This document shows positions 6,720 through 9,825 of a stretch of 64,000 bases of DNA, piece after piece (position 1 is the stretch's first letter; every line of letters starts with the position of its first letter). The stretch is from Streptomyces europaeiscabiei. GTDB taxonomy: Bacteria; Actinomycetota; Actinomycetes; Streptomycetales; Streptomycetaceae. The notes below the pieces were generated by a model that was not told the DNA's origin, did not search any database, and was given only the letters and a program-made list of their open reading frames with translations. The stretch spans positions 1 to 64,000 of the forward strand of contig NZ_CP107843.1 of assembly GCF_036346855.1 (NCBI RefSeq). Direction: 5' to 3'. The position numbers and the translations under genes are program-made.

Positions 6720-7796
6720 TCAGGCGGCCGTCTCCACGCCTAACGCTCCAGCGATGCCCGCCCCCGCCGTGACTGTGTCGGTGGGGGCGCTGTCGTCCAT
6801 CAGCCGGTCCGGGGACAGTGCCCACTGGTACACCAGCTCCGGGAGCGTCCCAGCCCCCCACAGCCCCTTCAGCCCGGCGACTTCCTCCTCGAGCTTGCGC
6901 TTGGAGACGCCGATGCGGCGGGCGATGGCGGGCTGGCCGTGGCCGGCGGCGAGGTCGCGGAGGATCTCCCGCTGCCGGCGCGTCGTTCGCACCCCCTCCC
7001 CGCCCGGCCCGGACACGGTGTCGACCGGCAGGTGCCCGCGCCGGGGCCTCAGTTCGCCGCACCAGACGTCGGCGCGCCGCCATTCCCCGTCGAAGACGCG
7101 TGCGATCCAGGCGACCATGGCCCGGTCTGACACGTGCCACGCGGAATGCGTGGGCGCGCCCTCCACGACGTAGTTGGAGATGAAGGCGTGCTTGCGGTCG
7201 ATGACGATGCACCGTTCGAAGTGGCCGACCATGGTGCGGTATTCGGCGCCCTTTCCGGTCATCACCCGGGCCTGCTCGGCGGTCACCGTGTTGTCGCGGA
7301 CCGTGTCCCGGTACAGGGTGCGCAGTCGCACTCCCCGATTGAGCGCGGCGGTGTCGCGGTTGATGGCGAGCGCCAGGAGGTCGGCCGTACGCGGGCCGCC
7401 CGGCTGCGCGGCGAGGATCTCCGTGCGGGCGCCGGCGACTATGTCGTCGAGGCGGGCGTTCACGGTGGCCGGGTCGTCGAGGTACTCGGCGCCGCCATTG
7501 GTGCGCCACTGTGCGCCCGCGTAGTGCGTGCCGAGCTGGTCCGCGAGGGACGGCAGCACCGACATGGCGGCCAGCCGGGCCTGGGTCTCCTCCAACTCCC
7601 GTGCCGCTTTGCGCTGCAGAGCCACCTCAGGGTCCAGCACGACCGGGATACCGGGGCGGGCCGGATCGAATCCGATCAGCCCCCAGTGCTCCAGCTCCTC
7701 GAGAACACTCTGCTTCACTTCTGTGAGCGGTTCCTGACGTGCGATACACCCGTACGCGCGCAGTGCATCGGCCGTCAAATGCTGCCGGTCACTCAT
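6720..7796 (-). CDS. LuxR/TrmB-like transcriptional regulator with degenerate PLD-like domain
   Basis: The product has 358 residues from the ATG at 7796; longer upstream starts lack support. The N-terminal 60 residues (LRAYGCIARQEPLTEVKQS) resemble a winged HTH of the TrmB type. The middle contains HFERCIVIDRKHAFISN, matching the degenerate phospholipase-D-like segment found in TrmB/LuxR hybrid regulators of Streptomyces. The C-terminus (TRRQREILRDLAAGHGQPAI and onward) is a LuxR-type HTH. It is divergent from the DTAWG exported peptide gene across a 306-bp shared promoter region. By analogy with peptide-sensing regulators it may read that peptide; this is inference. An alternative is an ordinary lysogeny or stress regulator. 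Confidence 0.8.
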   Translation of the reverse strand: MSDRQHLTADALRAYGCIARQEPLTEVKQSVLEELEHWGLIGFDPARPGIPVVLDPEVALQRKAARELEETQARLAAMSVLPSLADQLGTHYAGAQWRTNGGAEYLDDPATVNARLDDIVAGARTEILAAQPGGPRTADLLALAINRDTAALNRGVRLRTLYRDTVRDNTVTAEQARVMTGKGAEYRTMVGHFERCIVIDRKHAFISNYVVEGAPTHSAWHVSDRAMVAWIARVFDGEWRRADVWCGELRPRRGHLPVDTVSGPGGEGVRTTRRQREILRDLAAGHGQPAIARRIGVSKRKLEEEVAGLKGLWGAGTLPELVYQWALSPDRLMDDSAPTDTVTAGAGIAGALGVETAA

Positions 7797-8102
7797 CGTT
7801 CTACCTGTGGCCAAGACTTGGGTCCCCCGAGACAAGCCGAGATCATCTGCGGTTTTCCGCACTGCGCATAGACGCATGTGCGAACCGCTTGAAAGCCCTT
7901 CCACCGTACGGCAGCGTGGGGCGTGGGGCGTCCCCCGACGCTCGTACTCCCCATCCTCCCCACAGCCAGCCGCGTCTACTGCCAGAACCACACGACACGG
8001 TCAACTAAAAGGGGATCGCAGCGGACCGGAGAGATCACGGGATCGGGTCAGGCGCCCCACTGCCGTTTCCGAGCATCCGACACCGACCGAAGGATTCCTC
8101 TG
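7797..8102. promoter_or_regulatory. Divergent promoter region between regulator and exported peptide
   Basis: These 306 bases have no convincing ORF and separate two genes transcribed away from each other. They contain a TGCGCAT/ATGTGCG imperfect dyad near 7864-7885 and a GTGGGGC direct repeat near 7915-7927. The AAGGA at 8090-8094 is the ribosome site of the peptide gene. No clear -35/-10 pair could be fixed by eye. Divergent control by the regulator is plausible. Confidence 0.5.
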
Positions 8103-8330
8103 GTGAAGATGAAGCGCACAGTCCGCCGTATCGCCGCAGTCCTCGCCCTCGCCACCGCCGCGACCACCGGCGCCCTCCTCGCCGACGGCCTCGCCACCAC
8201 CCAGGTCGGCGACACTGCCTGGGGCGCCCACGACACCACCGGCACCGAGCCGGCCGACGAGACCACGGTGCCCGAGCTGGCCGACGGCGGCACCGTCGTC
8301 GTCACCCCCCTCGACACCGCCTGGGGCTGA
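8103..8330 (+). CDS. Small exported peptide precursor with two DTAWG motifs
   Basis: The product has 75 residues from a GTG with AAGGA 8 bases upstream; an ATG two codons later would serve equally. Residues 1-9 are basic (MKRTVRR), 10-31 are hydrophobic and Ala-rich, a typical Sec signal peptide. The exported remainder is acidic, and DTAWG occurs at about 37-41 and again as the final five residues. The two copies use different Thr codons, so selection on the protein rather than a recent DNA repeat is likely. This architecture (leader plus repeated short C-terminal motif) resembles precursors of signalling peptides. The neighbouring divergent regulator is the obvious candidate receptor (inference). 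It could instead be a small cell-surface peptide. Confidence 0.72.
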   Translation: MKMKRTVRRIAAVLALATAATTGALLADGLATTQVGDTAWGAHDTTGTEPADETTVPELADGGTVVVTPLDTAWG

Positions 8331-8585: not shown

Positions 8586-8627
8586 GATGCAGAGATAGTT
8601 ACGCCTGGGTGTAACTATCTCCGCATC
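8586..8627. repeat. 17-bp inverted repeat with AT-rich arms
   Basis: The left arm at 8586-8602 and right arm at 8611-8627 are complementary apart from one position. They share GAGATAGTTAC/GTAACTATCTC flanked by GATGC/GCATC, with an 8-base loop. The AT-rich arms stand out in this sequence and are not followed by a T-run, so an operator or recombination site fits better than a terminator. Confidence 0.6.
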
Positions 8628-8791: not shown

Positions 8792-9433
8792 TTACGCGGG
8801 CCGGGTGTCGGCGTACGGCGGCAGTCGGTCGGCGGCGAGCCGGGCCAGCCGCGCGGCGTCGGCCGAGCGCGGGCCGTCGTTGCCCCGCAGGAGGTGCACC
8901 AGCCGCCCGGCCGGGACCACTGGCACCTCCTGCAGAATGAACCCCTGCCCGGCCACAGGGGCGTTGTGCACGGCTATCAGCGGCTGGACAGGCACCTCGA
9001 GCGCGCGGGACACCATGTCGGCCTCGAAGCGCACCGAGCCGATCGCCCGGCCGTCGACCCGCTCCCCATGCATCAGCCGTTCACCGACAGGCCGCACAAC
9101 GCCGCCAGGCTTCTTTGCGGACCACAGCTTCGAGTCCACCACGAACACCTTCGCGCCCGGCGACACCAGCACGTGGTCGGCGTTCGCCGTACGCGCGCCC
9201 GGGATGGCCCGGTCGTGCAGCACCCGCCACCCCTCCCGCTCGAGCACCGATAACAGCCCGACCGTGTCCGCCTCACCCTTCGCCCCCGCATCCCACGCAC
9301 GGGCCTGCGCGTCCGCACGCCGAGTGTGGGCGGTGACACCCAGCCGGGCCAGCAGCCACCGCCACACACCCCGCCGGGCATGCGCACGAATCGCCGCAGC
9401 CTTCCGGGCCGCCGAGTTGTCCGCCACGCTCAT
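8792..9433 (-). CDS. NERD-domain protein (nuclease-related domain)
   Basis: The product has 213 residues from an ATG preceded by GGGAGGAG. The N-terminal 50 residues are basic and Ala/Arg-rich. Residues about 55-110 match the NERD domain: GAKGEADTVGLLSVLEREGW, then ADHVLVSPGAKVFVVDSK, containing the E...D...(D/E)xK pattern of the restriction-endonuclease-like fold. The C-terminal part (GFILQEVPVVPAGRLVHLL) completes the fold. NERD proteins are suspected nucleases, often linked to DNA processing or defence. It is the last gene of a long leftward operon and overlaps the upstream gene by 4 bases. Confidence 0.8.
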   Translation of the reverse strand: MSVADNSAARKAAAIRAHARRGVWRWLLARLGVTAHTRRADAQARAWDAGAKGEADTVGLLSVLEREGWRVLHDRAIPGARTANADHVLVSPGAKVFVVDSKLWSAKKPGGVVRPVGERLMHGERVDGRAIGSVRFEADMVSRALEVPVQPLIAVHNAPVAGQGFILQEVPVVPAGRLVHLLRGNDGPRSADAARLARLAADRLPPYADTRPA

Positions 9434-9825
9434 CGGTCTCCTCCCACTACATGCGGGCCCCACGTCAGCTCGTACGTGCACCCGGCAACCGGCGCGTCAT
9501 AGTCGTCAGGACCCGCCACCCACACGTGCGTCGGCCGGCCCTCCCGATCCACGGTCGCGTGCACGGTGACTCCTCCGATGTTCATCCACCACACGCGCGT
9601 GTCCAGCTGCTCCACGTGCAGCCACCGGCCCACGGCCAGCTCATCAAACTCGGTCCCCGGCAGGACGTGGGTCCTCGAGAACTCGCTGTCGGGGATGCCC
9701 TTCGCGTCGGGCAGCACGTGGTGGGCGAGGCCCCCGACGCCTTCCCGCTGTCCGGGGACCCGGCCCAGGTACTCGTGGACCAGGAGCCGCCACCGGCCCC
9801 CAGGCCGCCGCAGCCTCCCGCTCAC
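9430..9825 (-). CDS. Hypothetical protein, 131 aa
   Basis: The GTG start overlaps the upstream HTH gene's stop and has GGGGGAGGGGGAG just upstream. The protein is rich in aromatic and beta-branched residues in its second half (WLHVEQLDTRVWWMNIGGV, HVWVAGPDDYDAP), suggesting a small beta fold. No family is recognised. Its stop overlaps the NERD gene start, so the two are probably made together. Confidence 0.6.
   Translation of the reverse strand: MSGRLRRPGGRWRLLVHEYLGRVPGQREGVGGLAHHVLPDAKGIPDSEFSRTHVLPGTEFDELAVGRWLHVEQLDTRVWWMNIGGVTVHATVDREGRPTHVWVAGPDDYDAPVAGCTYELTWGPHVVGGDR

Follow-up and report, generated by a model that had tools for sequence, protein, structure and literature searches.

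The locus raises the question of whether two divergent genes, one for a DNA-binding regulator and one for a small exported-type protein carrying the motif DTAWG twice, form a peptide signalling pair, and how such a peptide would be read. The window (the whole stretch of DNA analysed, 64 kb) is identical in its first 20,000 bases, with 0 mismatches, to plasmid NZ_CP107973.1 of Streptomyces europaeiscabiei NBC_00363, a circular element of 92.8 kb annotated with a terminase large subunit, a P22-type coat, tail proteins and a DNA-transfer gene. Because phage structural and packaging genes and a transfer gene are found together on a replicating circular plasmid, NZ_CP107973.1 is a phage-plasmid. 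It resembles the pZL12-type Streptomyces phage-plasmids, which are circular elements of about 90 kb with terminase, coat and tail genes and a DNA-transfer gene; the passages of PMC4487206 that describe pZL12 and its relative pSLE1 name no signalling pair.

The divergent pair and its recurrence

The regulator and precursor genes are separated by a gap of 306 bp and comprise the following features:

6720..7796, minus strand: proposed receptor-regulator of 358 aa, with a winged helix-turn-helix (wHTH, residues ~1-55), a TrmB/PLD-like domain (~97-248) and a probable LuxR-type HTH (~267-331)
7053..7508, minus strand: middle domain of PLD/TrmB type (residues 97-248; structure model and fold match), proposed to bind the peptide
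6804..6998, minus strand: probable C-terminal LuxR-type HTH, residues 267-331
8103..8330, plus strand: putative signal precursor of 75 aa, from GTG at 8103 (alternative ATG at 8109), with a predicted export signal and two DTAWG copies
8211..8225, plus strand: DTAWG copy 1, GACACTGCCTGGGGC
8313..8327, plus strand: DTAWG copy 2, at the C-terminus, GACACCGCCTGGGGC

The protein sequence of the precursor is VKMKRTVRRIAAVLALATAATTGALLADGLATTQVGDTAWGAHDTTGTEPADETTVPELADGGTVVVTPLDTAWG; its export signal was scored by an in-house charge-and-hydrophobicity rule. The DNA pattern GAYACNGCNTGGGG, which stands for DTAWG, has no further occurrence within the 64-kb window. The precursor has no match in Pfam and a single, chance-level match in NCBIfam, and its homologues, where the source names them, are called hypothetical protein, one of them also secreted protein. 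As a query it retrieved 13 proteins (one at E 0.44), and DTAWG is the C-terminal end in all 13. The same query alone found no homologue among viral contigs and phage records, where the regulator was needed as query to find them. A search of its own genome gave no significant second match (E 0.10 for the next best); for the regulator, the host genome contains paralogues on the chromosome.

The modelled middle domain of the regulator is alpha/beta and was positively assigned to the PLD fold over about residues 100-247, with the wHTH and the LuxR HTH making up most of the rest. The combination of a wHTH with a PLD-like ligand domain is that of the TrmB family at the fold level, while whole-length superposition on TrmBL2 gives a high rmsd. 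The Pfam TrmB profile does not match the window regulator up to E 1 in a search whose filters discard the bulk of matches weaker than about 0.1; TrmB is the JGI name of some homologues. Pfam and NCBIfam gave HTH matches only, all below cut-off, and PHROGs and PADLOC gave none. Database annotation puts the regulator start at an internal codon (~7718), by which part of the N-terminal wHTH is lost; homologues favour the start at 7796. The description given in the earlier note thus holds: a regulator with an N-terminal winged HTH, a PLD-like middle and a probable C-terminal LuxR HTH, backed here by the model and the fold assignment, lies divergent from an exported-type precursor with two DTAWG copies, which differ in codon choice by one synonymous base.

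With the regulator as query, matches were found in 88 plasmid records and in one phage, Chymera (two records). Nine of the first ten loci contain a divergent ORF, 50-78 aa long, that has an export-like start and in which a motif is repeated; it lies 145-420 bp from the annotated regulator start. A divergent precursor is also present in five of the next nine plasmid loci, in 15 of 16 IMG/VR loci and in 9 of 13 GTDB-contig loci, some loci being the same record in two collections. A profile built from 11 regulators detects a relative at E <= 1e-10 in 60 of the 61 genomes of the window's genus; at class level, 49 of 196 genomes, in 14 of 81 genera, have a relative at E <= 1e-15.

The 100 regions around the matches listed, together with 30 loci from the genus profile search and the earlier loci, yielded 207 distinct regulators after exclusion of those more than 85% alike by 4-mers, of weak matches (E > 1e-10) and of domains shorter than 120 aa. 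A pair was called when a divergent ORF with an export-like start and [DE]xxW lay within 900 bp. At least two identical copies of [DE]xxW in a divergent export-signal ORF were found beside 76 of the 207 regulators versus 0 of 2,720 control anchors, and at least one copy in a divergent export-like ORF beside 106 of 207 versus 111 of 2,720 (4.1%); the anchors, set at 250-bp steps along 400 kb of further DNA from the genus, overlap and hence are not independent. Nine alternative motif patterns reach two or more identical copies in 0 or 1 of the 207. The pair is not mainly a phage trait, since 72 of 102 pairs lie outside the phage-plasmid set, most of these on genome contigs. By the pair criterion, 101 of the 207 regulators have no [DE]xxW ORF; some precursor-less regulators share one precursor in tandem arrays, and some may be orphans.

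The motif differs among systems (DTAWG, DTTWG, DTGWG, DSAWG, DSTWG, DTHWG, DTWWG, DPGWG in Chymera, DVGWG and others) and is mostly uniform inside one system. For this comparison, pairs 700 bp or more apart were left out, by which 102 of 106 were kept, a few spurious picks among them. Two or more motif copies occur in 78 of the 102 pairs, and 71 of these 78 have the same residues at peptide positions 2 and 3 (X1 and X2 of the core D-X1-X2-W) in all copies. Copies agree at X1X2 in 95.8% of 263 comparisons within a precursor and in 5.8% of 22,742 between precursors. Glu replaces Asp at motif position 1 (EISW, EPSW, EPTW), with up to six repeats, at four loci on genome contigs (L106, L096, L281 and L288). 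In the Chymera precursor the motif stands at a likely signal-peptidase site, read by eye between AQA and DPGWG.

Genus g33 (11 loci) shows a different layout. A nearby short ORF carries D[ST]xW in 10 of the 11 loci; the ORF of L241 is without a clear export signal, and L240 has TSWG only. In the ten loci that were placed, the motif ORF is downstream and convergent, not divergent, and in several loci the motif directly follows the likely signal-peptidase site.

Covariation of regulator and peptide motif

Four residues of the middle domain vary with the peptide, and their codons in the window are the following:

7416..7418, minus strand: codon of residue 127 (Ile, in strand 126-131), which tracks peptide position 2 (Thr/Ser) and fails to do so in genus g33
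7353..7379, minus strand: codons of residues 140 (Leu), 144 (Ala) and 148 (Asp), at i, i+4 and i+8 in helix 138-153, identified by covariation

The alignment comprised 94 partnered regulators and a window row, 95 rows in all, the window protein being also L017 and so counted twice; L180, L185, L150, L152, one spurious L162 pick, duplicates and domains shorter than 200 aa were left out. Asp stands at site 148 in all 37 rows with Thr at X1, in all 27 with Ser and in 2 of the 31 others, most of which have a small or hydrophobic residue there. Site 127 is Ile or Val in 37 of 37 Thr rows and Met or Leu in 26 of 27 Ser rows. After overall divergence was regressed out, 148 ranked first for X1 (r 0.52) and 127 second (0.40; SD over sites 0.099), and the best sites for X2 were 140 (0.25) and 144 (0.19; SD 0.045). 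By X2, site 140 is Leu with 11 of 15 Ala peptides, Gln with 12 of 20 Thr and Val or Ile with 17 of 28 Gly. In the structure model, 140, 144 and 148 are one turn apart in their helix and 127 lies in the preceding strand; the four residues would face one groove.

The pattern was written down before 105 more loci were added, which gave 123 new distinct regulators, 50 of them with a divergent [DE]xxW ORF; some of the new loci are orthologous to earlier ones. All 28 pairs with repeated copies followed the 148 rule, as did 19 of 22 with a single copy, the misses being L283 (EGSW) and L253 (ETSW), whose motif ORFs look spurious, and L314, which has both DRGW and DTGW. The 127 rule held for 6 of 6 Thr peptides (one from the probably spurious ORF of L253) and 10 of 11 Ser peptides. 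The 11 loci of genus g33 have Asp at site 148 in all but one, which has Glu; L, M or A stands at site 127 beside Thr/Ser peptides, which rules out the 127 rule as a universal one. Site 140 changes in 9 of 12 X2 contrasts, with no fixed direction. Judged from these alignments, the 148 rule seems to be general and the 127 rule to depend on lineage, with X2 specificity following a less simple pattern. The residue at 148 is little guide to the presence of a precursor: Asp occurs in 67 of 103 regulators with a precursor and in 55 of 100 without.

The covariation at four middle-domain residues argues that the regulator recognises the DxxW motif directly via its middle domain. The earlier note had proposed that the peptide is read by the adjoining regulator, which this pattern supports, and had looked to other genomes for co-occurrence of the two, which is found both in the 207 regulators and in the new loci.

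Two observations concern regulators without a detected precursor of their own. Tandem arrays of 3-6 regulators, mostly with one detected precursor, occur at L161, L117 (on the host chromosome), L176, L143, L164, L137 and others; 12 of 14 arrays include a member with V/E/G/A at sites 127/140/144/148, and this member never has its own precursor by the pair criterion. L057, L047 and L048, with no detected precursor, show L/L/A/D at these positions, as do 5 of 7 DSAW receptors, and by sequence it is possible that they eavesdrop on DSAWG.

The covariation shows motif recognition and not the route by which the motif arrives, and the precursors studied adjoin their regulators. The regulator could be binding DxxW of unexported precursor inside the cell, as a sensor of the secretion state or in a private feedback loop with no cell-to-cell signal. 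This is unlikely, as the multiple copies, the exact C-terminal copy and the position of the motif at or just after the likely signal-peptidase site suit processing outside the membrane, and as there are regulators for which no precursor was detected. A modified peptide (RiPP) or an antimicrobial made of DxxW units, with the regulator controlling immunity or production, would also fit the small size, export-like start and repeated units of the precursors, many of which lie in Streptomyces genomes. However, receptor residues track the peptide, and at the plasmid and phage loci examined, where most neighbours are named hypothetical protein, annotation places no peptide-modifying enzyme or exporter directly next to the pair; such a product is thus very improbable. 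That the covariation is shared ancestry, regulator and precursor subfamilies having descended together without contact, is scarcely credible: peptide identity and regulator distance are indeed correlated (r 0.16 and 0.12, values reached in 0 of 500 permutations), but independent contrasts, taken on a tree from which these sites were omitted, show a switch at 127 in 9 of 9 Thr-Ser pairs, five of them only 0.11-0.22 apart, and at 148 in 8 of 9 Ser/Thr-other pairs, the top sites fall on i, i+4 and i+8 of one helix and the strand before it, and new loci obey the 148 rule.

Candidate operators and neighbouring genes

The DNA targets of the regulator may lie between the two genes, where three palindromes were noted:

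7848..7861, no strand: proposed operator 1, TGCGGTTTTCCGCA
7863..7876, no strand: proposed operator 2, TGCGCATAGACGCA, 15 bp from operator 1
7928..7941, no strand: second conserved palindrome of the divergent region, GCGTC-N4-GACGC

A general repeat search of the window missed the operators, which were revealed by a dyad count. The dyad TGCG-N6-CGCA occurs in 24 of 30 phage-plasmid intergenic entries (L058 stands twice among the 30) versus at most 4 in five shuffles per set that kept single-base composition; the same few spurious picks as in the concordance set also remain in the dyad counts. Fifteen of the 30 entries contain a tandem pair with a spacing of 15 bp, and 14 of these 15 pairs have their sites near -98 to -102 and -83 to -86 relative to the profile-match start. 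The two proposed operators are the sole TGCG-N6-CGCA matches in the 64 kb (2 seen versus 2.87 expected); as this count is at chance level, the evidence for operators is their position and conservation, and the intergenic conservation is partly shared descent. The pattern TGCGGNNNNCCGCA, with one mismatch allowed, is rarer than chance (1 versus 8.3 in the window and 1 versus 5.4 in the overlapping stretch L216). No third operator was found in the window, nor a convincing direct target elsewhere on the plasmid. In 16 of the 30 phage-plasmid entries (14 of 30 on shorter stretches) the GCGTC-N4-GACGC palindrome is placed near -161 to -176 relative to the regulator. At the remaining loci the dyads are different: CAGG-N2-CCTG in 30 of 72 (shuffle maximum 5) and TCCTG-N6-CAGGA in 21 of 72 (shuffle maximum 2).

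Directly beyond the precursor, the window has no gene in the same direction; the next gene is convergent:

8792-9481, minus strand: NERD-domain gene (family match), convergent with the precursor gene

An inverted repeat found by eye in the interval between the two genes (8587-8627, gatgcagagatagttacgcc / tgtaactatctccgcatc) is perhaps a bidirectional terminator; a scan for promoters and terminators gave no result. NERD or nuclease-related genes are also close to the pair in other phage-plasmids (L018, L019, L021, L022, L023 and L025).

Of 15 annotated precursor-bearing loci on phages or plasmids, 11 have a gene next to the precursor, on its far side, that runs in the same direction, 73-177 bp on and mostly at about 100 bp. 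A Pfam scan of nine of these eleven genes identified one Tad3 and two DUF7352 proteins and left four without a match; below cut-offs, one resembles metallopeptidases and one PGDYG proteins. The Tad3 gene, which encodes a Thoeris inhibitor, lies directly beyond the precursor (L025:2033-2443, E 7.2e-31), and the slot differs at other loci. The gene beyond the precursor may be a variable cargo slot whose expression is gated by the signal. In Chymera the pair lies between structural and lysis genes on one side and the integrase, immunity repressor and excise genes on the other, a position that suits a role in lysogeny.

Proposed mechanism and relation to known systems

As a whole, the reading of the pair as a peptide pheromone and its cytoplasmic receptor is one that we consider highly probable. 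Its strongest part is direct recognition of DxxW by the middle domain; its weakest are extracellular signalling and a lysis-lysogeny role. The recurrence of the pair, the repeat structure of the precursor, the receptor-peptide covariation and the conserved operators come from computation, and we infer export, processing, import, the oligomeric state, the sign of the effect and the trait controlled. Sec would export the precursor, and cleavage would release a short peptide that contains the core D-X1-X2-W (here DTAWG). This peptide would re-enter the cytoplasm, probably by a host oligopeptide permease, and bind a groove of the PLD-like domain, where X1 and X2 would be read by residues 148 and 144/140 of the helix and residue 127 of the strand. 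Binding would alter the hold of the regulator, as a dimer or tetramer, on the tandem operators between both genes, and through it the expression of the regulator, the precursor and whatever lies beyond the precursor.

The RRNPP/arbitrium systems (AimR-AimP; Firmicutes, Bacillus phages) consist of an exported precursor, a short peptide and an adjacent cytoplasmic DNA-binding receptor of HTH and TPR domains. The present system is like them in its small exported-type precursor, the short peptide proposed and its carriage by temperate phages and plasmids, and the receptor gene adjoins the precursor gene in both; it differs in its receptor of wHTH, PLD-like domain and LuxR HTH, its divergent genes, its DxxW core and its actinobacterial hosts. 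Since the receptor is positively assigned to a PLD fold, a wHTH and a LuxR HTH, and not to TPR, the system is not an arbitrium relative, and membership of RRNPP/arbitrium is ruled out by receptor fold. Unlike archaeal TrmB and TrmBL2, the window regulator is bacterial and has an extra C-terminal LuxR-type HTH, and its proposed ligand is a peptide, whereas that of TrmB is a sugar (2f5t is titled sugar binding domain). It is also unlike LuxR-family proteins of the RhlR, SdiA and NarL type, as its HTH is preceded by a PLD-like domain in place of an acyl-homoserine-lactone or receiver domain, and the ligand proposed is a peptide, not a lactone. A lead only is offered by S. coelicolor BldK, an oligopeptide transporter which, according to the passages on it in PMC9640686, imports an extracellular peptide of ~655 Da presumed to be a signal; the likeness lies in the extracellular peptide, its presumed signal role and its import by an oligopeptide transporter in Streptomyces.

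The open-licence literature yielded no description of a DTAWG/DxxW peptide and regulator pair, and a prior description is possible in subscription papers and bioRxiv, most of which lie outside that scope. By term search, a 2026 review of phage communication contains neither Streptomyces nor any word beginning with actino, and the accessible part of a 2016 review of actinobacterial quorum sensing lists no such pair. The peptide-and-receptor family across Streptomyces genomes, phage-plasmids and phage Chymera is apparently undescribed so far.

In its widest form, the proposal is that Streptomyces and their phages share a genus-wide D-X1-X2-W language with a new class of intracellular receptor, a readable code (148/127 for X1, 140/144 for X2), private phage-plasmid channels and eavesdropping orphan receptors; we regard this as reasonably likely. 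Since each system would supply a precursor, its receptor and a prediction of specificity at once, the import of peptides as signals by Streptomyces would become a directly testable question. If the proposal is true, a major group of antibiotic producers would have a gene-encoded peptide language, so far unlabelled, and the phages and phage-plasmids of Streptomyces would have a possible arbitrium-like channel with an unrelated receptor.
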